Below, one piece after another: positions 8,651 through 62,414 of a stretch of DNA of 64,000 bases. Within the stretch, counting starts at the first letter, position 1. Every line of letters begins with the position of its first letter. The notes beneath the pieces are model-generated. The model made no database searches and was not told where the DNA came from. It saw only the letters and a list, made by a program, of their open reading frames with translations. The position numbers and the translations under genes are program-made. This DNA comes from Pirellulales bacterium (GTDB lineage: Bacteria; Planctomycetota; Planctomycetia; Pirellulales; PALSA-1355): assembly GCA_022844125.1 (NCBI GenBank), contig JALHMI010000005.1:1-64000 (forward strand), written 5' to 3'.

Positions 8651-10081
8651 TCACGCGAGCAACTCGGGCACCACCTTCGCGCCCGTGACTTCCGCGTCGG
8701 TGAGGCTCGTCGGCCGACCGTCATGAGGGTAGGCGAGACGGTGGTGATCCAGCCCCAGCGCTGCCAGTAGCGTGGCGTGCAGATCGTGCACGGTGACGAC
8801 TTTCTCCACGGCCTCGTAGCCGAAGTCATCCGTCGCGCCGTGCACGTAGCCGCGCTTGAATCCGCCGCCTGCGAGCCACGTCGAAAAGCCCCGGCGGTTA
8901 TGGTCGCGCCCGTCGGAACCTTGTGAAATCGGCAACCGGCCGAACTCACCCGTCCACATCACAATCGTGTCGTCCAAGAGTCCGCGGCGCTTGAGATCTT
9001 CGACGAGGGCGGCGCTTGGTCGGTCGGTCTTCGCACACAACCCTTTGAGGCTTTCCGCGTTCTTGCTGTGCGTATCCCACGGTTGCGAACTCAGGAACAA
9101 CTGGACAAATCTCACGCCGCGCTCGATCAATCGCCGGGCGATCAGGCACCGCGTGCCATACTCGCGTGTTGCGTCTTCGTTCAGTCCGTACAACTCCTTG
9201 GTCTCGGCCGGCTCGCCGGAGATGTCCAGCACCTCGGGCACGGACGTTTGCATCCGCGCGGCCGTTTCGAAATTCGCCAGCCGGGCGGCCAGCTCGCTGT
9301 TGCCGGGGTGTCGACTCAAATGCGCGCGGTTGAGCTGCTCGAGAAACGCCAGTTGGTTGCGCCGCGCCGCCGGCGACGATCCCTCCGGCGGCTGGAGGTT
9401 CACCACCGGCGATTTCCCGGAACCGAACGGCGTCCCCTGAAAGATCGCGGGGAGCCAGCCGGCCGACCAGTTCCGTGTGCCATCAATCGGCAGTCCGCCG
9501 GGATCACCCAGCACGACATAAGCCGGCAAGTTCTGATTCTCAGAGCCGAGCGCATAGGTGACCCACGAGCCCCAGGTCGGCAGCCCGGCGAAGATCTTGC
9601 CCGAGTGAATCAGCCGCAGGGCCGCTTCATGGTCGACGCTTTCGGTATTCATCGAACGAATGAGCGTGATGTCGTCCGCGATGCGGGCCGTGTACGGCAG
9701 AACTTCGCTAAGCTGCATGCCGCACTGCCCTGCCGGGGCGAACTTGAACGGTGAGCCGAGGACGTTGCCGGCCTGGTTCGTGAAGTGGATCTCGAGTTCG
9801 CCGGACGGGTATGGCTTGCCGTGAAACTTTTCGAGCATCGGCTTGGGATCGAATAGATCCATCTGGCTCGGCCCGCCATGCTGGAACAGGCAGATGACGT
9901 TCTTCGCCTTCGGCGTGAAATGCGTCGCGCCTGGTTGCAGGTCGGTGGTGGCAGCCGAGGCCGATTGCTGATTCGCCAGCAAATGTGCCAGCGCCAGCCC
10001 GCCCAGGCTGCCGGCATAGCGGCCGAGAAAGCTGCGGCGGGTGAGCTCGGTGGTGATCTGGCGGTTGAGTTCGTGAGACAT
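8651..10081 (-). CDS. DUF1501 family exported protein
   Basis: The product is 476 residues from ATG 10081, eight bases after the stop of the upstream DUF1553 gene, with GGAG just upstream. A GTG at 10093 would overlap that gene. The N-terminus has a Tat signal (LTRRSFLGRYAG) followed by a hydrophobic stretch. Family landmarks include FQHGGPSQMDLFDPKP, MWTGEFGRLP and DGRDHN. The fold belongs to the alkaline-phosphatase/sulfatase superfamily. Family knowledge places DUF1501 with DUF1549/DUF1553 partners in planctomycete degradative operons, but no activity is established. The pair here is certainly one operon. Confidence 0.93.
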   Translation of the reverse strand: MSHELNRQITTELTRRSFLGRYAGSLGGLALAHLLANQQSASAATTDLQPGATHFTPKAKNVICLFQHGGPSQMDLFDPKPMLEKFHGKPYPSGELEIHFTNQAGNVLGSPFKFAPAGQCGMQLSEVLPYTARIADDITLIRSMNTESVDHEAALRLIHSGKIFAGLPTWGSWVTYALGSENQNLPAYVVLGDPGGLPIDGTRNWSAGWLPAIFQGTPFGSGKSPVVNLQPPEGSSPAARRNQLAFLEQLNRAHLSRHPGNSELAARLANFETAARMQTSVPEVLDISGEPAETKELYGLNEDATREYGTRCLIARRLIERGVRFVQLFLSSQPWDTHSKNAESLKGLCAKTDRPSAALVEDLKRRGLLDDTIVMWTGEFGRLPISQGSDGRDHNRRGFSTWLAGGGFKRGYVHGATDDFGYEAVEKVVTVHDLHATLLAALGLDHHRLAYPHDGRPTSLTDAEVTGAKVVPELLA

Positions 10082-10089
10082 TACGCCGC

Positions 10090-13000
10090 TCACTCCACGT
10101 AAAGGAAGCCGCTGCTGGCGAGCAGCATCTGGCAGTAGTCGGTCCAGGCAAGTTGGTCGCCCTTCTCGTCGTCGCCATACGTCTCGCGCTGCGTGTCGAG
10201 AAACCCGCTGGCGGCTGCGTGTTCGGCAGGGAGCGGCTCTCGGCCGTAGGCCAACAGGTAGCTGCGATCAATTCTCTTGGCGGGATCCTCGCCGGCCTCG
10301 TTGGCCAGTCGTGCGGCAAAGTGCCGGGACTGTTCGCGCAGGAACGGCGAGTTCAACAAGCTGAGCGATTGGAGTGGAATCGTTGAGATCGGCCGCTGCA
10401 CACAGTTCACCACCAGCGAAGGCGAATCGAATAAGCCCAGCAGGCTCAGCGTTTGCGTGCGCCGCTGCTGCAAATAGAGCGAACGGCGATTCGTTCCGGC
10501 GGCGCCTTCCGTGACGACCGCTTCCCCCAACCCGTCGCGCGAGGTGGGCACATAGGGTCCGCCCATCGATTCATCAAGCTGCCCGGCCGTGGCCAGAATG
10601 GCATCCCGAACCGCCTCGGCATCCAGCCGGCGGACCGTCCACCGCCAAAGCAATCGATTGTCGGGATCGATTTTGCTTGCGCCTGCGTCGTAGGTACTCG
10701 CCTGTCGATAGGCTGCCGAGTTAAGCATCACGCGGTGCATGTGCTTGATACTCCAGCCGCTGCGAACGAACTCCGCCGCCAGGTACTCAAGCAATTCCGG
10801 GTGCGAGGGGGCCGCGCCGCTCACGCCCAGGTTCTCGCATGTTGCTACGATGCCCGCGCCAAAGTGCTGCTGCCACATCCGGTTAACCTGTACACGTGCC
10901 ATCAGCGCAGCGGGACGCGCGTCAGCGTCGGTGACCCAGCGCGCCCAAGCCAGGCGCCGGCCGGTCGTCTCCGCCCCGGACTCAGGCTTCGCGATTTGCC
11001 ATTCGGCGTTCGGATCGCTGAGGGCCGCCAGCGGCGCAGGCTCCACCGTCTCGCCCGGCGAGCTGTGGCTGCCCCGCTCCAGCAGATGAACTTCCGGCGC
11101 ATTGGCCGAGCGATCCGTCATCCAGGCGATGCGGCCCGGCTCAGGTTTTCGCTCACCATCAAGTTGCTTGATCGAGGCCTCGAGTTCCTCGCGCCGCCTG
11201 CTTGTTTCGGCTTGTAGTTGAGCATCGGCAGCCAGGTCGCCCGTCTCACTCTCACGGATCACGACGTTATCGACGATGAACGACCGCCCGCAACAGAGCC
11301 CGAAGCCGAACCCGCCGCTGCCCAGCGCCGCCTGATCGAGCACGGCCGACTTCCGGTCCGGCACGCCATCGTAAAGATGATCGAGCCGGCACTTGCCGTC
11401 GGCGACGCGCGTGATGCGGACGCCGTAATTGTGACCGCCTCGGTAGACGGCCTCGCCCAGTGTGCCATCGTCTTTGTGATCGTTGCCGGGATAGTCCAGG
11501 TACAAACCAACGCCGCCACCCTCGGGTTTGCCTTCGAGCAGGACGTTCCCGGTTTCCCCCTCGCGCGTGTCGTTGTAATCGCGGACGGCCAGAAAGTAGG
11601 CGATCCGCTCGCTGACCTTGCCGTCGCCAACTTTGACGTCCACCAAATCGAACGTGACCTGTATCCAGGCGCCTTCGGCCTGTGGCGTCCAGTTGAATGT
11701 TTGCCTGGTAGACATCACGCGGTCGCCGGGATCACCACTTTCCAGCACGAACAAATTGCCGTCGCGAGCAATCGTTGCCGGCCGGGTTTCCGAATCGAGA
11801 TTAATGGCCGGTTGACCCGCGGGTTGATCATCTCCCGGCGCCGTGTGGCTCCAGGCGTCCGCCAGCGGAGGTCCGCCCGCGGCAAACTCGTCGCGGAACA
11901 GTACCGCTCCGCGCGGCTGATTCTCCTTCGCCCAAGCGGCGAACTCTTCGCGCAGCTTCGCGACTTTGTCGTCGACTTCCGCTTCGTGGGCTTTCCAGGT
12001 TTCAAGCTCGCCTGGGAGCGTGGCCTGCACGACGCGTTCGTTCGGCTTCTTCCAATCCTTGACGTTGAAGGCTGGATAGAACACCGACTGCCACTGGTAG
12101 TAGTCGCGCTGCGAGAGTGGTTCGAACTTATGATCGTGGCATTTCGCGCATTGCACGGTCAGCCCCAGCAGCGATGACGACACAATCTGCAGGCACGAGT
12201 CGAGCGCCGAGTAGCGATCGATCGTCCGTTCGTTGTCGTTGCCGTCGCTTTCGCCGGTGCCGTCTTGGCCATTCCGCAGATAATGCGTCGCCTCCAGCAG
12301 CGAGATCACCTCGCTGGTGGTCGCTTCGCCCGGCTTGAATCCGGCCAGCTCATCGCCGGCAAGCTGCTCAATGACAAACCTGTCGAACGGCTTGTCTGCG
12401 TTGAATGCCCGCACGACGTAGTCGCGATAGCGGTACGCCAACGGCCGATCGCTGTCGGCATTGAAGTAGCCGTTGCTGTCGGCATAGCCCGCGGCATCGA
12501 GCCAGTACTTGCCCCAGCGCTCGCCGTAACGCGGCGAAGACAGGTAGCGATCGACCATCCGCTCATAGGCGTCCGCCGAAGTGTCGTTTTGATACGCCGC
12601 GATCTGTTCGGGAGTCGGCGGCAGACCGGTCAGGTCAAACGCCACGCGGCGAATCAGCGTCGCTCGGTCGGCTTCTGGGCGATAGCCAAGGCCGTTTCGC
12701 TCGAGCTCAGCCAGCACAAAGCGTTCGACGTCGTTCCGCACCCGATGGGCTGCTTGAGCCTGCGGGGCCTGCGGAGCCTTGAGCGGCACGAAAGCCCAGT
12801 GATCGCCCGAGGGGTGCGCGCTCCCTTCAGCCGGCAGGCCCGGGGCGCCGGCCTTGATCCAGGTGGCGAGCAGTTCGCGCTCCTCGGCCTTCAGCGGAGC
12901 GTCGGGCGGCATCTCGTCCGCGGCGACCCGCTGCCAGAGCAGGCTCTCATTCGGTTTTCCCCCCTGCACCGCAGCGCCACTGTCACCCCCGTTGGCCAGC

Positions 13001-51602: not shown

Positions 51603-52301
51603 CTAGTCGAGCGTCAGATTGCGAAACTTCACTCGCAGCTTTATCTTTGTCGTCCAGCCGATGCCGGTACGGTCGAGTGAGAGTGTCTCGAGCAGCTTAA
51701 GTTGGGGCAAGATTACGTCGAGTGCATCGGGATCGACGACCGTACCGGTCAGGTCGAGATGCCTGAGCGTGTCGAGCTCACGCACTTTCAGCAGACCGCC
51801 TTCCGTCACGGATGTGTCGATCAGAGCCAACTTCCGCAGCCCGGCGAGCATGCGGCGTTGAGCGACCAGCTGTTCGATCTTTGCGTCGTCGATCTGGGGT
51901 CCCATAAGCGTAATGCCCGTGAGCTTGTCGAGCACGACGGCAAAATCGGGGCCAATGGAGCGGCTGAGCGGATCGGAAGAGTTAACGTCGACGTTGCCGG
52001 CCCAGGATTTGACCTGCTCGATGAGCTTTTCCTGTTCGGCGTACTGCTCGACCCAGCGACTCAGCCAAGCCATCCGGCCCGACTTAAAGCGGGCGTACTC
52101 AGTCGCCTGCTCGAAAGCTTCTTGCAGCCGTTTGAACTCCTCGACGCTGCCTCCCTGGTCGGGATGGGCCGTGCGGGCTTTCACCAGATAGGCTTGCTTG
52201 ACGTCTTCCTCGGTAACTGGCGGGGCGAGCCCCAGAACAGCTAGAAACTCGTGACGCTCGCCATGAAACTCGGTCGAGACTGGCTCGGGAGCATTGGACA
52301 T
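51603..52301 (-). CDS. J-domain protein with C-terminal leucine-rich repeats
   Basis: The product is 232 residues from ATG 52301, with AAGGAAG upstream. A GTG at 52322 is an alternative. The J domain spans about residues 17-70 with HPD at 46-48 (TAHPDQGGS). From about residue 150 there are LRR-like units such as GLRKLALIDTSVTEGGLLKV and TLRHLDLTGTVVDPDALDVI. J domains recruit DnaK/Hsp70. The LRR part probably chooses the client. It follows the barrel and C39 genes on the same strand after 119 bases, so it might share their transcript. Confidence 0.82.
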   Translation of the reverse strand: MSNAPEPVSTEFHGERHEFLAVLGLAPPVTEEDVKQAYLVKARTAHPDQGGSVEEFKRLQEAFEQATEYARFKSGRMAWLSRWVEQYAEQEKLIEQVKSWAGNVDVNSSDPLSRSIGPDFAVVLDKLTGITLMGPQIDDAKIEQLVAQRRMLAGLRKLALIDTSVTEGGLLKVRELDTLRHLDLTGTVVDPDALDVILPQLKLLETLSLDRTGIGWTTKIKLRVKFRNLTLD

Positions 52302-52420
52302 CGGACTCGGCTTCCTTGGCACTGCGGTGGCACGGCGAACGGCTACTCAGCAATCCTAGCCCGCTACGTCCGGAAAAGCACCCCTGTGCTCGCGGTATTT
52401 CCCGGCGTTTCGTCGGGGTG

Positions 52421-54550: not shown

Positions 54551-55216
54551 GGCCCACCTTTGTTGTGCGTCTGCCGTCTACAAATGTCTGCTTCAAAGCC
54601 CGAGGCACGCCTCGGACGTTGCGATTGGGTCGCACTTCGTCCACGCGGCTCGAGTAGTTTTCAGGCGGACGGCCTGACCTGCGAACGCGGCGCAACCGTC
54701 CTATCCCGTTGATCTGGATCGACCGCCATATCCCGTACAATGAGAACAGTCGTCAGGCCCGCTAAAGTTTCGCTGACCTGCGCCTTTTAACAGCTGCTGG
54801 GGGCAAGTCCGCAACTCATTGGGCAGCAGTGCCTTACATCCACTCTTCCGTCGCGATCAGGTCAGACTCGCCGTTTGAGATCACCGCCCAAGCGTGAAAC
54901 TGTAGCGGTTCTATCGATTCTCCCACGTGGTTCAAACCTGCGGGTTGTACGCGTTACTCCGTCAAAGACCGCTCGCATCAATTCGTCCGAAAGTGCGGAC
55001 GATGATACGTGCAACGAAAAGTGCGGTGGCGCCTAGCGACCCGCGCTCTCGGCGAGGCTTGCCGTGGGGCTTGAAAGTCCACTGAACCGTGCCCAACACG
55101 CAGCGACGATCAAGGCGGCAAGCAGGACCAAAAGGCGTTCGTCAACGTACACCACGGTTCGCAATGAACCCAAATGCGGCCACGCTGGTCGCGAGATCCC
55201 AGGAGGGGGTGAGGAG
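54551..55216. other. Divergent promoter region of the two barrel genes
   Basis: The 666 bases between the minus-strand barrel and the plus-strand barrel contain no convincing gene. Small palindromes are visible, such as CGTCC...GGACG near 54985-55000 and CAGGC-ggacg-GCCTG near 54661. Both upstream regions must be here, but I cannot place -35/-10 boxes reliably. Confidence 0.4.
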
Positions 55217-56416
55217 ATGAAGAAGTCACTATCAAAGTTTGGCATGCTGCTCACGGCGATGGGGATTGCCGCCAGCGGACAAGCCTTCGGCGGCGATCAG
55301 ACGGAGCCAGTATTCCGTCCTCCGCTGATCCAACAGGTATCTGCGCAGCAAACGGTGCCGGCAACGAAACCGGCTCCGGAACCGCCGCAGCAAGTCCCCA
55401 CCAGCCGTTGGGAAACGCAGGAGCCGATTCAAACGCCCGAGCAACCCGCGGGTCCCGTGGCTGCCGGTTGTGGGCAGTATGCCGTCGGTGATCTGTGTTG
55501 TGCCCCGGGCTGTCAGTTCATCGTGGGCATTGAAGCCACATTCTTCTGGCCGCAGTTGAGCCGAGAGTTCTTATCGACGACGCTTTCCAACGAACTCGGC
55601 ACTGCGACGTACGTCGACAATGCGGCGCTCGGTTCCGTCGATGGCAACTTGCTCGTAGGTCCGCGCATCACGCTCGGCGTGCAGGGCGAATGTTGGGGCC
55701 TGGTCGGCCGCTATTGGAATTCTGCTACGAACGGCAATAACTTCACACCGGCGATTCCAGACTCGGTGCAAAGTGGCATCCTGCTGTTTGATCAATTCAG
55801 CGTGTACACGGCCGATCTCGAAGTCCAACGCCGCTTCTGCTGGCGCAACTGGGACATGTTCGGATACGGCGGCGTTCGCTACGCGTCGGTGAACAACGAC
55901 CGCAATATGTGGGTCCAGAATACGTTTGGCGACGACATCGTCCAAGGACAGTCGTACTCGGGCCAGCAGTTCAACGGTGCCGGTCTAACCGGCGGCGTGT
56001 TCGGACTACGACCGCTATTCTGCGATGACGGAGCCCTGAAGGCTTACTTCTCGAATCGTTACTCCATCCTGTGGGGTAACGGAGTGGCGAATGTCCAGAC
56101 CCAGGCCCAAGCCGCGACTTTGGGTGGCGGTGACTTCCAGTCGTTAGACGGCGCGATCGCGGGTGGCGACGGCGACCTGTTCATCTTCGAAATCGGCGCC
56201 GGTCTCCAGTGGGAGACGTGCCTGTGCTGTCTGCCAGGTCGTGCCTTCTTCCGCTGCGGCTTCGAATGGCAATACTGGGACTCCAATGCCGGTGTGGCAG
56301 CCAGCTCGTTTAGTGAGGCAGTCTCCGGCGACGCATCGGCTTTCAGTACGGCCGATGCCGGCGAACTCCTGTTCGACCTGGTCGGCTTCACAATCGGCGG
56401 CGGCCTGACCTACTAA
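55217..56416 (+). CDS. Planctomycete outer-membrane beta-barrel protein (BBP7/Lpg1974-like)
   Basis: The product is 399 residues. ATG 55217 is set by the strong GGAGGGGGTGAGGAG site just before it. The signal peptide covers residues 1-25 (ending GQAFG). A Pro/Gln-rich linker leads to a Cys-containing start (CCAPGCQFIVGIEATFFW) and then a long series of amphipathic strands with repeated aromatic residues, ending GFTIGGGLTY. The pattern fits the large barrel families common in planctomycete outer membranes. No transport substrate can be predicted. It is divergent from the minus-strand barrel and is followed by a perfect hairpin. Confidence 0.75.
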   Translation: MKKSLSKFGMLLTAMGIAASGQAFGGDQTEPVFRPPLIQQVSAQQTVPATKPAPEPPQQVPTSRWETQEPIQTPEQPAGPVAAGCGQYAVGDLCCAPGCQFIVGIEATFFWPQLSREFLSTTLSNELGTATYVDNAALGSVDGNLLVGPRITLGVQGECWGLVGRYWNSATNGNNFTPAIPDSVQSGILLFDQFSVYTADLEVQRRFCWRNWDMFGYGGVRYASVNNDRNMWVQNTFGDDIVQGQSYSGQQFNGAGLTGGVFGLRPLFCDDGALKAYFSNRYSILWGNGVANVQTQAQAATLGGGDFQSLDGAIAGGDGDLFIFEIGAGLQWETCLCCLPGRAFFRCGFEWQYWDSNAGVAASSFSEAVSGDASAFSTADAGELLFDLVGFTIGGGLTY

Positions 56417-56449: not shown

Positions 56450-56486
56450 CGGGTCCTGTCCGCCAAGCCTCGGCGGACAGGACCCG
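56450..56486 (+). terminator. Hairpin terminator after the barrel gene
   Basis: A 15-bp perfect stem, CGGGTCCTGTCCGCC (56450-56464) with its complement at 56472-56486 around a 7-base loop, lies 34 bases after the stop. There is only a weak T-tract (TATGGTTT). Confidence 0.65.
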
Positions 56487-56540: not shown

Positions 56541-56571
56541 ACCCTGCTGCCGCGCTTGGCGGCAGCAGGGT
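56541..56571 (-). terminator. Hairpin terminator after small secreted protein A
   Basis: ACCCTGCTGCCGC (56541-56553) pairs perfectly with 56559-56571. On the minus strand it lies 56 bases past the stop of the small-protein gene and is followed by CCTTGCTTT. Confidence 0.65.
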
Positions 56572-56626: not shown

Positions 56627-57037
56627 TTACCACGCCGATGCGCGAGCGCTGCCGCCGGCGTAACCGCCCTTGATGCTGCCCTGGAGGGCCGCACCGGTCG
56701 GATCAATACCGAAGCTGATATGGCCTTTGCCGGCGAAGCTAAAGCTGTTGCCCTGGGCATTCGACGGCTTGCCGAGCCACGAGGCGCCAGCTTGGTAGTT
56801 GTTGTTTGAGGTTTGGCCGTGGTAGCTAGCGCTGCTGCTGCCCCAGACTTTGGCGTTCGTGCCACCGCCATAGCCGCCCATGTAGCCCTTACCTCGAACG
56901 GCAGTGCCTTCGCTGTCCGACATCTGCTGCATGCCGCCCAGGCCCATCGAGGCCAGGGTCGACTTCGAAACCGGCTCAACGGCCGACGCGGTAGCGGCAA
57001 ACAACATTACCGCACAAGCAATTGCAAAGCTCTTCAT
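56627..57037 (-). CDS. Small secreted Gly/Ser/Asn-rich protein A with conserved leader
   Basis: The product is 136 residues. GAGGACC lies seven bases before ATG 57037. The Sec signal peptide is MKSFAIACAVMLFAATASA. A conserved leader-like segment follows, STLASMGLGGMQQMSDSEG then TAVRGKG. The rest is low-complexity Gly/Ser/Asn/Ala with aromatic spacers (AKVWGSSSASYHGQTSNNNY) and a closing block FGIDPTGAALQGSIKGGYAGG. It is paralogous to the protein at 57518, which shares leader and block order. The composition suits a surface polymer, adhesin or bacteriocin-like product. No known family is recognised. Confidence 0.78.
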   Translation of the reverse strand: MKSFAIACAVMLFAATASAVEPVSKSTLASMGLGGMQQMSDSEGTAVRGKGYMGGYGGGTNAKVWGSSSASYHGQTSNNNYQAGASWLGKPSNAQGNSFSFAGKGHISFGIDPTGAALQGSIKGGYAGGSARASAW

Positions 57038-57371
57038 TGAATGGTCCTCATGAAAGTGGAATCATCGTAGCAATTCAGCCCCGGCCACATGCACGGCAAG
57101 CGGATTACGCGCGCACGCTCCGAGGTTAGAAGTCCGAGTCTCAAAGAGCCGTGGCCCTTCAATACCCACCTGACCCGAAGGCCCAAATGGCGTCCCAAGC
57201 GGGAGTGGTTGACGCTGCGCAGCAATCAATCGAGTGACAGACTAGTTATCCTCAAAGTCATTGTCAACAGTTTGACCGCTAGAATCCCCCCAGCTTGCCA
57301 AAACTCTCGAGGAATTCGTCCCCCGTGCCTCCATGGAGCTTCCCCCAAGTCGTTCGCGCGCAAAAAAACAC

Positions 57372-57407
57372 GAGGCCCTGTCGCCATGCGGGGTGCGACA
57401 GGACCTC
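57372..57407 (-). terminator. Rho-independent terminator after small secreted protein B
   Basis: On the minus strand, a 13-bp stem with one mismatch (GAGGTCCTGTCGC / GCGACAGGGCCTC) is followed within three bases by seven T residues (57362-57368). It lies 110 bases past the gene's stop. The rest of the gap 57038-57517 has no gene. Confidence 0.88.
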
Positions 57408-57484
57408 GTTCACAGAAATGAAAGCCTGGATGGCTCGTACCTGGCAGGAGGATCGAAGGAGATCCTTGCTCGGTCATTAACCGC

Positions 57485-57502
57485 GCGGCCACCTGTGGCC
57501 GC
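57485..57502. repeat. Solo palindrome related to the CACAGGTG family
   Basis: GCGGCCAC-ct-GTGGCCGC is perfect and shares the GCGGCCACCTGTG core with the terminal hairpins of the CACAGGTG elements at 15251 and 20948. It lies 15 bases after the stop of small protein B. Confidence 0.55.
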
Positions 57503-57517
57503 TGGAGTTAAGTAGCA

Positions 57518-57922
57518 CTACTTGGCGAACGCGAACGCGCCACCGCCGGCGAAGCCGCCCTTGGAACTGATGCTCAAAGCCGCGCCGGTCGGGTCGACGC
57601 CGAACTGGGCCTGTGCCTTAGCGGCGAAGCTCAGGCTACCGCCCTTGGCGAAGGACGACTTGCCGTGCCAGTTCGAACCTGCTTCATAGTTGTTGCTGGC
57701 CGATTGGCCCTTATAGTTGGCCGAGCTGCCGCCCCAAACGCCGGCAAAGGTACCCTTGCCGCGAACCTTGGCGCCGGCTTCGTCCGACATCTTTTCCATC
57801 CCGCCCAGCCCCATGGCGCTGAGGGTTTGCGATTCGACGGCCGCGGGAGCTTCAGCAGCAGCCACGTTGACGAAAGCGACCGACGCCAGAACGGCGAACG
57901 CACAGATCGAAAGGCACTTCAT
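57518..57922 (-). CDS. Small secreted Gly/Ser/Ala-rich protein B with conserved leader
   Basis: The product is 134 residues from ATG 57922. An AGAGAGAA site and the signal peptide (MKCLSICAFAVLASVAFVNV) set the start, not the longer frame. Its leader QTLSAMGLGGMEKMSDEAG then AKVRGKG matches protein A nearly position for position. The mature part (GVWGGSSANYKGQSASNNYE, FGVDPTGAALSISSKGGFAG) aligns with A along its whole length. It has its own terminator, so it is transcribed separately from A. The C39 peptidase at 52421 is a candidate processing enzyme, as inference. Confidence 0.78.
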   Translation of the reverse strand: MKCLSICAFAVLASVAFVNVAAAEAPAAVESQTLSAMGLGGMEKMSDEAGAKVRGKGTFAGVWGGSSANYKGQSASNNYEAGSNWHGKSSFAKGGSLSFAAKAQAQFGVDPTGAALSISSKGGFAGGGAFAFAK

Positions 57923-58207: not shown

Positions 58208-59377
58208 ATGTCATCAACCGACGGCCAGTCAAGTTTCGAAATGCCGGTGATGGAGTCGGCCCCGGGACCGATCACCGTGCTCGATGGCCGCGAGTGCCTG
58301 TACTTTGCCGGCACTGGTTACCTGGGCTTGCAAGCGAATCCTGATGTTCTCGCAGCAGCCGTAGCAGGCGCGCAAAGGTATGGGATGCACAGTGCCACCA
58401 CGCGAGCGGGATTCGGCAACTCGCCGCCGGTGCTCGAGGTGGAACGTCGCACGGCAGAATTCCTGGACTGTCGCCAAGCCTGTTATCTCGTCTCAGGATA
58501 CGCAAGCAACTTCGCGCTGGCCGCCGCCGTTCGGGAAGAAATCGACTTGGCGTTCATCGACGAGGCCGCACACGATTGCCTGAGCGAAGCGACGCGATGG
58601 CTTGACCTCGCGCGGCCACCGATCTCCTTCCGGCACCGCGACGCAGGTCATCTCGGGGAGCTTCTCAAAAACTACGGGACGCGTGGTCAGCGTCTGCTGG
58701 TGCTAACCGATGGCGTGTTCGCTGCCAGCGGAAGGCTTGCGCCGCTCGGCGACTATCTGAGTATCCTCAAGCAGTACTCCGGGGCCGCCCTGCTCGTTGA
58801 TGATGCCCACGGCGTGGGAGTGTTGGGCGAGCACGGTCGTGGTAGCCTGGAGCTGACAGGTATCGCGCCGGCGGCAATCAACACAGCCGAGGGCACTCAG
58901 GAACTCCGCCTTCTGCATAGTATCACGCTTAGTAAGGCAATTGGCGGACACGGGGGCGCTGTGGCTGGAAGCCGCGCGTTTCTAGAACGACTGCGCAGCG
59001 CCAGCGGCTGGTTTCGCGGGGCAAGCGCGCCGGCCGCTCCGGTTGCCGCGGCAACTGCCAAGGCTCTGGAACTCGTCCACACCCGGCCGGAGCTCCGTCG
59101 CCGCCTGGCGGAAAACATCACTCACGCGCGGCAGCGGTTGCGCGAACTGGGCCTGGGCATCGAGGATTTGCCATCGGCGATCGTCAGTTTCGAGCTGGCT
59201 TCGGCTGCGGAAATGCAGCGAGTCCAGCGATCACTGCTGTCGGCGGGCATCGCCATCGCGCATACCCGCGACTATGCAGGCGCGGGCCCCGATGGTATGC
59301 TTCGAATCGCCATATTTGCCACGCACACACGCGACATGATCGACCAATTGGCTGCTACGCTTGCACGTGTGTTGTAG
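58208..59377 (+). CDS. Alpha-oxoamine synthase (8-amino-7-oxononanoate synthase-like)
   Basis: The product is 389 residues. It is a fold-type I PLP enzyme: GTGYLGLQANPDV near the start, DDAHGVGVLGEHG with Asp199 and His201 contacting the cofactor, and LSKAIGGHGG with Lys243 as Schiff-base lysine. Members condense an amino acid with an acyl-CoA: BioF makes 8-amino-7-oxononanoate, Kbl handles 2-amino-3-ketobutyrate and serine palmitoyltransferase starts sphingolipids. No other biotin gene is nearby, so BioF is not assured. It is divergent from small protein B. Confidence 0.85.
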   Translation: MSSTDGQSSFEMPVMESAPGPITVLDGRECLYFAGTGYLGLQANPDVLAAAVAGAQRYGMHSATTRAGFGNSPPVLEVERRTAEFLDCRQACYLVSGYASNFALAAAVREEIDLAFIDEAAHDCLSEATRWLDLARPPISFRHRDAGHLGELLKNYGTRGQRLLVLTDGVFAASGRLAPLGDYLSILKQYSGAALLVDDAHGVGVLGEHGRGSLELTGIAPAAINTAEGTQELRLLHSITLSKAIGGHGGAVAGSRAFLERLRSASGWFRGASAPAAPVAAATAKALELVHTRPELRRRLAENITHARQRLRELGLGIEDLPSAIVSFELASAAEMQRVQRSLLSAGIAIAHTRDYAGAGPDGMLRIAIFATHTRDMIDQLAATLARVL

Positions 59378-61205: not shown

Positions 61206-62414
61206 ATGCCGACGCTCATTCAGCCTGATCAAACCTGGCTCTTGTGGGCGGTTATTCTGGGCGGCGTGGCACTGAGCGTTTGGCTCGAGCAGACCTACCG
61301 TTGGGCGGCCAGGCTCAGCGGACCGGTCGTGGCTCTTTGTATTGCCATGTTGCTTGCCAACTTAAGGATCATGCCGCCGGGCTCGCCAGTCTACGAGGTC
61401 GTGTCCGATCAGCTGGTGCCGCTGGCGCTTCCGCTTTTGCTCTTCCGGGCCGACGTGTTTTACATCGCGCGGACGACGGGCTGGTTGTTCGTGGCGTTTC
61501 ACGTGTCCGCGATTGGTACCGTCGTCGGAGCAATCACGGCCACGCTTACTTTGCGCGCATCGGTGCCGGACGCGGCACAGGTGGCAGGCATCATGACTGG
61601 CAGCTACATCGGCGGCAGCGTCAATTTCTCGGCGCTGGCTGCTTCGTATCACGTCACAGGCGATGTTACCGGTCCGCTCCTGGTGGCCGATAATTTTATT
61701 ATGGCCGGGATGTTCATCACCCTGCTGCTACTCTGCAACAGCAAGTGGGTTCGCTCGCGATATCCGCATCCAGACTCGGTTGATGCAGTCGACAGCCGCG
61801 TGCTCGCCGCCCAGCATTGGGGACGCAAGGGAATTTCGCTGCTGGATATCGCAGGCTCACTGGCGGTCGCCGTCGCGGCCGTGGCCGTGGCCGAATCGAC
61901 GGCCGGTCTCCTCGAACAGCAGTTCGCGAGTGCTGATGGGGGCCCATCGATTTTTGCCAAGTTACTCAGCAACAGCTACGTTCACATCACGTTCTGGTCG
62001 ACGCTGATCGCGACAGTTGCGAGCCGGGCGCTTGGCAAGCTGAATGGCGCCGAAGAGATGGGTGGGTACCTGCTGTATGTGTATTTGTTTTCCATCGGAC
62101 TTCCCGCCGATCTATACACGGTGTTTACCAAGGTACCGATGATGTTCGTCTTTTGTCTAATCATGGCACTGGCCAATCTGGCGGTGACTTTTGCCGCAGG
62201 CAAACTCCTGCGAATGAATCTGGAACATCTTGCCTTGTCCGTAAATGCCACGCTTGGTGGCCCTCCCAGCGCCGCCGCCATGGCAATTTCGATGGGCTGG
62301 TCGAAACTCGTGCTCCCGGCACTGCTGGTCGGCATCTGGGGCTACGCGATCGGCACCGCGGTGGGCCTCTTCGTCGGCGAGCTGCTCAGAGCCTGGCTCG
62401 GAAGCACTGCGTAA
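61206..62414 (+). CDS. DUF819 family integral membrane protein
   Basis: The product is 402 residues with about ten hydrophobic segments. QVAGIMTGSYIGGSVNFSAL, GPLLVADNFIMAGMFITLLL and NATLGGPPSAAAMAISMGW are conserved DUF819 blocks. The family is thought to be transporter-like. In other bacteria it often sits beside dipeptide epimerases or peptidases, which fits its position here after the class C hydrolase. The transported substrate is unproven. Confidence 0.88.
   Translation: MPTLIQPDQTWLLWAVILGGVALSVWLEQTYRWAARLSGPVVALCIAMLLANLRIMPPGSPVYEVVSDQLVPLALPLLLFRADVFYIARTTGWLFVAFHVSAIGTVVGAITATLTLRASVPDAAQVAGIMTGSYIGGSVNFSALAASYHVTGDVTGPLLVADNFIMAGMFITLLLLCNSKWVRSRYPHPDSVDAVDSRVLAAQHWGRKGISLLDIAGSLAVAVAAVAVAESTAGLLEQQFASADGGPSIFAKLLSNSYVHITFWSTLIATVASRALGKLNGAEEMGGYLLYVYLFSIGLPADLYTVFTKVPMMFVFCLIMALANLAVTFAAGKLLRMNLEHLALSVNATLGGPPSAAAMAISMGWSKLVLPALLVGIWGYAIGTAVGLFVGELLRAWLGSTA

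Follow-up and report, generated by a model that had tools for sequence, protein, structure and literature searches.

A leader behind the signal peptides of Pirellulales secreted proteins as a probable recognition tag for a FapD-type C39 peptidase

In the Pseudomonas Fap system, a periplasmic C39 peptidase, FapD, adjoins the outer-membrane barrel FapF, and the amyloid operon also encodes the Sec-exported protein FapE. The target of FapD is unsettled in print; FapE is suspected, with no motif named. PMC5557850 states that the Fap proteins lack a canonical C39 sequence and that a different sequence may be recognized by FapD, that FapE alone among them shows complete N-terminal processing, and that Cys38 of FapD is needed for FapC secretion, which is abolished by C38A. 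According to a 2025 review, the N terminus of FapE, as well as FapF, is "thought to" be processed by FapD (PMC12822426), and PMC6173800 reports FapD-FapF pairs in five further phyla, which may include planctomycetes. Searching the literature, mostly without subscription papers and preprints, we found nothing tying FapD/FapF to planctomycetes and no leader named in FapE or in planctomycetes. A second relative is the FilB/FilC "putative pilus system" of Acinetobacter, so named in NCBIfam, and FilA of this Fil system has a leader. In curli (CsgA/CsgG), Sec-exported low-complexity subunits leave through an outer-membrane pore; we know of no C39 peptidase in that system. The planctomycete system described here probably works like Fap, whose peptidase and barrel are homologs of its own; what is new, within the literature searched, is the leader itself, in planctomycetes and in FapE.

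The window, a 64,000-nucleotide stretch of a Pirellulales bacterium (contig JALHMI010000005.1), encodes two secreted leader proteins on the minus strand, P0001 (positions 56627 to 57037, 136 aa) and P0002 (57518 to 57922, 134 aa), each identified from its open reading frame, its translation, and its paralogy with the other; the start of P0002 is taken as the ATG at 57922, and the open frame extends further upstream. They are 48% identical over 130 columns (BLASTP, E=3e-33; 55% in a genome search) and are the sole two significant matches in the 6.44-Mb genome in a protein search. The first-pass annotation had described them as paralogs with a common leader, and this was borne out, as were the Sec-type signal peptide on each, by reading of the sequence, and the common C-terminal end FG(I/V)DPTGAAL...KGG(Y/F)AGG. 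The leader follows the signal peptide and reads TLxxMGLGGMxxMSDxxGxxVRGKG. Its 28 residues lie at 56885 to 56968 (minus strand) in P0001 (SKSTLASMGLGGMQQMSDSEGTAVRGKG; leader-profile match, E=5.9e-14) and at 57752 to 57835 (minus strand) in P0002 (ESQTLSAMGLGGMEKMSDEAGAKVRGKG; E=3.0e-13), where the match itself spans 57752 to 57832, model columns 2 to 28, and column 1 was supplied by one added codon. Neither protein has a significant match in Pfam or NCBIfam. The FapE model (NF058559, NCBIfam) matches neither at E<=1 and nothing in the window's genome at E<=10; the control genomes were likewise silent, so the genome-wide negative is weak evidence.

The strand of the leader genes also encodes a peptidase and a barrel. 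P0003 (52421 to 53191, minus strand, 256 aa) is a secreted, FapD/FilB-like C39 peptidase and the proposed reader of the leader. It matches Pfam Peptidase_C39 (3.2e-17), and its best NCBIfam match is FilB (1.5e-26), at 93.4 bits far under the cut-off of 475; the match to FapD (NF058616, 6e-23) is likewise below cut-off, at 81.3 bits against 330. Gln74, Cys80, His168, and Asp184 are invariant in 33/33 homologs, and the AlphaFold model (mean pLDDT, 85) matches the double-glycine peptidase domains of PCAT1, ComA, and LahT in a search of solved structures. P0003 thus shares with FapD the C39 fold, the Cys-His-Asp residues, and secretion, its signal peptide being recognized by eye, and no ABC transporter domain was found on it with Pfam or NCBIfam. 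The gene immediately upstream encodes P0004 (53234 to 54550, minus strand, 438 aa), a FapF-like outer-membrane barrel and the proposed export pore. Sequence likeness is again below cut-off, at 41.1 bits against 700 for FapF (NF058560, 9.5e-11) and, more weakly, 14.6 bits against 630 for FilC (0.015). In the structure search, the top 18 matches of the AlphaFold model are all Pseudomonas FapF crystal chains. From about residue 181 the block means of model confidence are mostly >90, with a few loops at 74 to 90. FapF is a trimer that has a coiled coil in the periplasm and a plug helix; the N-terminal region of the P0004 monomer model is mostly at pLDDT <50, with a short helix at residues 170 to 176 ahead of the barrel. 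Together with the FapF fold, a PTG motif, given as a FapF feature in PMC6173800, is kept in at least 90% of 31 barrel-family members. The leader genes, on the same strand, start 2.1 kb from the barrel gene, and the C39/barrel pair lies 2 to 5 kb from them. A leader placed behind a signal peptide makes sense here because the C39 peptidase is itself secreted and encoded beside the leader genes.

The leader forms 28 columns in an ungapped alignment of 36 proteins. Planctomycete C39 loci encode 70 distinct proteins that carry it, and clustering of their bodies gives 17 groups at E<1e-3 and 25 at E<1e-6. Because it is ungapped in the 36 proteins and recurs in 70 proteins with such diverse bodies, the leader is more than chance similarity, and it reads as a modular tag on many unrelated bodies. 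The first-pass annotation had called the bodies Gly/Ser/Asn-rich, which is roughly right: the 70 bodies are rich in G (15.7%), S (12.8%), A (11.9%), and T (8.4%), with N at 5.0% and Cys at 0.2%, and their median length from the +1 residue is 84.5 residues. Ten further leader proteins gave nothing significant in Pfam. One leader protein (locus L059, 8619 to 9335, plus strand) shows, by eye, curlin-like repeats with QGG..N every 20-odd residues, with no Pfam match. Many bodies (those of L043, L048, L050, L051, and L065 among others) share a C-terminal motif of the approximate form VYAGGFSxAxxF, which, at the end opposite the leader, may be a signal for export or assembly.

A likeness to double-glycine leaders had been proposed from the window alone, and the larger set supports it with amendments. 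The hydrophobic positions of the double-glycine register are kept at -12 (M/V/I/L in 67/70) and -4 (V/I in 70/70), and Gly at -2 is invariant (70/70), as is Gly at -19 (70/70), while Arg stands at -3 in 69/70 and Gly at +1 in 49/70. The amendments concern -7, where all 70 proteins have G/A/S in place of Leu or Met, and -1, where none has Gly, 6 have Ala, and 3 have Ser, so that the GG, GA, or GS ending is largely missing. The leader therefore keeps the double-glycine register but departs from it at -7 and -1. Together with the C39 fold, this register is what the system shares with double-glycine leaders and the PCAT/ComA/LahT peptidases; unlike in those systems, the leader stands behind a Sec signal peptide and the C39 protein is secreted and stand-alone. 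The register could also mean that P0001 and P0002 are precursors of bacteriocin-like or other peptides from which the leader is removed on export, and relatives from Methylocaldum and Methyloversatilis with a canonical GG do weakly match bacteriocin-leader models (E 0.013 to 0.16, below cut-offs). Several features speak against such precursors: the Sec signal peptides; the locus, in which a C39 peptidase secreted as a protein of its own and a FapF barrel take the place of a peptidase-ABC transporter; and G/S/A/T-rich bodies of the length given above. Nor was a modification enzyme found among the window genes tested with Pfam and NCBIfam, which makes this origin very improbable.

In a set of 36 Pirellulales C39 loci (the window, L012, and L043 to L076), a FapF homolog is present in 33, in 31 of them within 100 bp of the C39 gene or overlapping it, and 29 have a leader protein (E<1e-3) inside the retrieved stretch. 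Among the other seven, four belong to genomes with leaders elsewhere (G205, G145, G066, and G293), two have weak candidates (L074 and L075), and one has none (L044, from G213). Another 36 loci, forming a named set that overlaps the first, gave 34 with FapF, 27 with a leader, and 25 with a homolog of the gene at 55064 to 56416.

The first-pass annotation had set the correlation of leader and C39 peptidase as a check on its idea of a double-glycine-type recognition signal behind a signal peptide, and the outcome is strongly positive, in support of that idea. C39 (E<=1e-10) is present in 32/296 genomes of the order. With a profile whose source proteins are encoded next to C39 genes, and in genomes that are related and so not independent, the leader (E<=1e-4) occurs in 30 of the 32 C39-positive genomes versus 0 of the 264 C39-negative ones (Fisher p 4e-39); by genus, the counts are 17/19 versus 0/102 (p 8e-19). 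Among the four genomes of the window's own family, C39 and leader proteins occur together in two and are both missing from the other two. The two C39-positive genomes without the leader at this threshold are G213, with a completeness of 66%, and G219, where a weak leader candidate, LSATEANEIRGTGG, is found in the divergent locus L074. At E<=0.1, 21 more genomes match, none with C39; the matches in the two inspected, G281 and G289, were rejected as leucine-rich repeats, and those in the remaining 19 have E 0.01 to 0.1. At the level of the phylum, five of 392 genomes have the leader (E<=1e-3), and the same five have C39 at E<=1.5e-68; two further C39 matches, both weak (E 5e-17 and 9e-16; frames of 745 and 764 aa), come from genomes in which no leader was matched. 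The one of the five that lies outside the order, G658 from another order of the class, encodes C39, a FapF homolog, and a leader behind a signal peptide, all within 3.5 kb. The number of paralogs per genome, also raised by the first-pass annotation, is two in the window's genome, and leader matches reach eight in others.

This joint distribution bears on whether the leader might be the conserved N terminus of a single family of folded domains, with C39 nearby only as an inherited neighborhood. P0001 and P0002 are indeed alike over their whole length, and the related genome G001 shows extensive synteny with the window; yet leader genes of G001 also lie on two further contigs, the 70 bodies are spread over 17 to 25 clusters, leader and C39 are jointly absent from 264 genomes, and a profile from other phyla locates the predicted site in these proteins (see below). 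We regard a single folded family as a highly unlikely explanation.

Related leaders are found in other phyla. In a scan of species genomes for C39 loci, a FapF homolog is present in 41/44 loci outside Planctomycetota among the best 80 of 573 matches, and leaders behind signal peptides stand near the C39/FapF pair in Proteobacteria, Nitrospirota, and Acidobacteria: three in Methylocaldum (MTETQLAAVEGG) and others in Methyloversatilis (MSEEQLAAVEGG), Nitrospirales (LTDDQLDTVAGG), Nitrospirae (LTDPEMAEIRGG), and Acidobacteria (LSVEEMQSISGQ). A divergent Pirellulaceae locus encodes four leaders behind signal peptides. The motif occurs in 16 of 343 signal-peptide-like ORFs, picked by a simple home-made rule, from 30 dereplicated loci, a count that left out 14 near-duplicate Paraburkholderia/Helicobacter/Burkholderia loci and L153 (Pirellulaceae); 2000 permuted motifs gave a mean of 0.90 and a maximum of 6. 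About 12 of the 16 look convincing. We regard one match (L157, 5141 to 6448) as false, the product being a membrane protein, and three (L157, 718 to 1512; L161, 595 to 1389; L155, 3765 to 4061) as doubtful. In the Marinobacter proteins L157 718 to 1512 and L161 595 to 1389, a hydrophobic stretch is followed by the motif LSDxDxAxxSGQ; in the former, this signal-like stretch comes after a c-di-GMP-binding MshE-type domain, and the latter reads alike.

The Nitrospirae leader protein matches the FapE model (E 3.2e-4), and FapE itself has a leader. In the Pseudomonas Fap system it stands directly behind the signal peptide (LKDQELAQLRGK), as it does in other proteobacterial FapE proteins (LKDAEMADLRGR, LSDPQLAQMRGR, LTDEEMGDMRGR), with a weaker form in Paraburkholderia (VGDDVLAQQTGK). 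By pattern, the FapE leader is found in 14 of 17 loci (L197 to L213), and L197, the locus of the Nitrospirae protein, is a fifteenth; no leader was assigned in L199, where a stop breaks the open frame, or in L203, where the pattern has no match. Four of the FapE proteins (L207 to L210) score above the FapE cut-off. The resulting motif and site, L-x-D-x-E-L-x-x-[LMI]-R-G-[KR], fit the remark on another FapD recognition sequence in PMC5557850. The statement in the first-pass annotation that no named family has this layout was therefore not quite right, since FapE is laid out alike.

For a hold-out comparison, we derived a position matrix from other phyla only; its 27 rows are 18 FapE leaders and 9 others, and they include the two doubtful Marinobacter 12-mers. 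Its best window coincides with the predicted site in 43/45 Pirellulales proteins; with FapE leaders alone the count is 34/45, and with the 9 others alone it is 37/45. On both window proteins the matrix chose the predicted site, and 0/200 shuffles were as good for each. The planctomycete system is like Fap in its periplasmic C39 peptidase adjoining a FapF-fold barrel and in a Sec-exported protein whose leader, directly behind the signal peptide, ends in R-G-[KR]. It is unlike Fap in that the window's peptidase and barrel fall below the FapD/FapF cut-offs and its leader proteins do not match FapE, in that -7 is G/A/S in Pirellulales whereas it is L/M in 18/18 FapE leaders, in the extra conserved MGL block, and in the up to eight leader matches per genome. 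The likeness to the Fil system consists of the P0003-FilB and P0004-FilC matches, both far under their cut-offs, and the likeness to curli lies by analogy in the Sec export of low-complexity subunits through an outer-membrane pore.

Taken as a whole, the observed layout and linkage, the co-occurrence, the register, the invariant catalytic residues, and the predicted folds make it probable that the leader is a recognition and cleavage tag for a periplasmic FapD-type C39 peptidase, which would feed small cargo proteins to a FapF-type pore. P0001 and P0002 would then be small cargo of a Fap-related secretion pathway. The Sec signal peptide, read from the sequence, would carry them into the periplasm. 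Its removal would expose the 28-residue leader, which the hydrophobic groove of the co-encoded C39 peptidase would bind as a helix and cut at the VRG-x(-G) end or immediately after it; co-occurrence, register, and family point to this step. The cut in VRG-x may fall after x or after the following Gly. Homology and linkage suggest that the freed G/S/A/T-rich protein would then leave through the FapF-like barrel to the cell surface or matrix, where it may serve as fiber subunits. That C39 binds and cuts the leader has, on these sequence data, odds of about three to one in our view, and export by the FapF-like barrel is likely; that the product forms fibers or matrix, based on composition and analogy, has about an even chance.

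Several points count against this reading. The canonical C39 pocket would not favor leaders without Leu at -7 and Gly at -1, P0003 and P0004 lie far below the FapD/FapF cut-offs, and a leader is missing from 2/32 C39-positive genomes at E<=1e-4 and from the retrieved stretch of 7/36 loci. A leader end lacking the small -1 residue preferred in canonical cleavage, along with the binding without cutting that the Fap papers attribute to some C39-like domains, would also suit a docking or targeting tag that is read without cutting by C39, acting as a chaperone, or by the FapF-like pore, and that stays on the secreted protein. Such a tag is unlikely, since all 33 C39 homologs keep the catalytic Q, C, H, and D and, as PMC5557850 reports, FapD C38A abolishes secretion.

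FapE of the Pseudomonas Fap system probably follows the same scheme of a leader that is recognized and cut. More broadly, and with odds only a little better than even, FapD/FapF pairs may be a route of outer-membrane export that is general across phyla, with a periplasmic C39 peptidase reading a transferable leader once Sec export has exposed it; FapE would be the one-cargo case, and Pirellulales would have up to eight distinct small surface cargos per genome and a retuned leader (G/A at -7 and an R-G-x end). The leader thereby suggests the recognition target of a poorly understood FapD-type peptidase, and the planctomycete comparison leads to a concrete FapE motif and site, testable by one- or two-residue changes. 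If the reading is true, it provides a tag for finding cargo proteins by sequence across many phyla and a candidate surface-fiber or matrix system for planctomycetes.

Other features surround the cluster. The gene at 55064 to 56416 (plus strand), convergent with the leader genes, encodes a secreted protein, probably an outer-membrane barrel, with no Pfam or NCBIfam family. Homolog counts make it a frequent partner: it has homologs in 25/36 Pirellulales C39 loci and, among 127 genomes, in 14/14 C39-positive and 7 C39-negative ones. It is possibly a fourth part of the system. A hairpin search placed a 17-pair hairpin, a probable terminator, between the convergent genes (56450 to 56486), and a second strong hairpin there (56541 to 56571) is probably also a terminator. 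Three neighbors, encoding DnaJ-LRR (51603 to 52322), aminotransferase-like (58208 to 59377), and DUF819-like (61206 to 62414) proteins, keep their gene order around the cluster in one related genome but were rejected as parts of the system, being near-absent elsewhere: at E<=1e-5 they are found in the window and one related locus, the aminotransferase-like protein also in L183. In one Pirellulales locus (L054), two C39 genes form a tandem pair, at 8785 to 9531 and 9653 to 10375.
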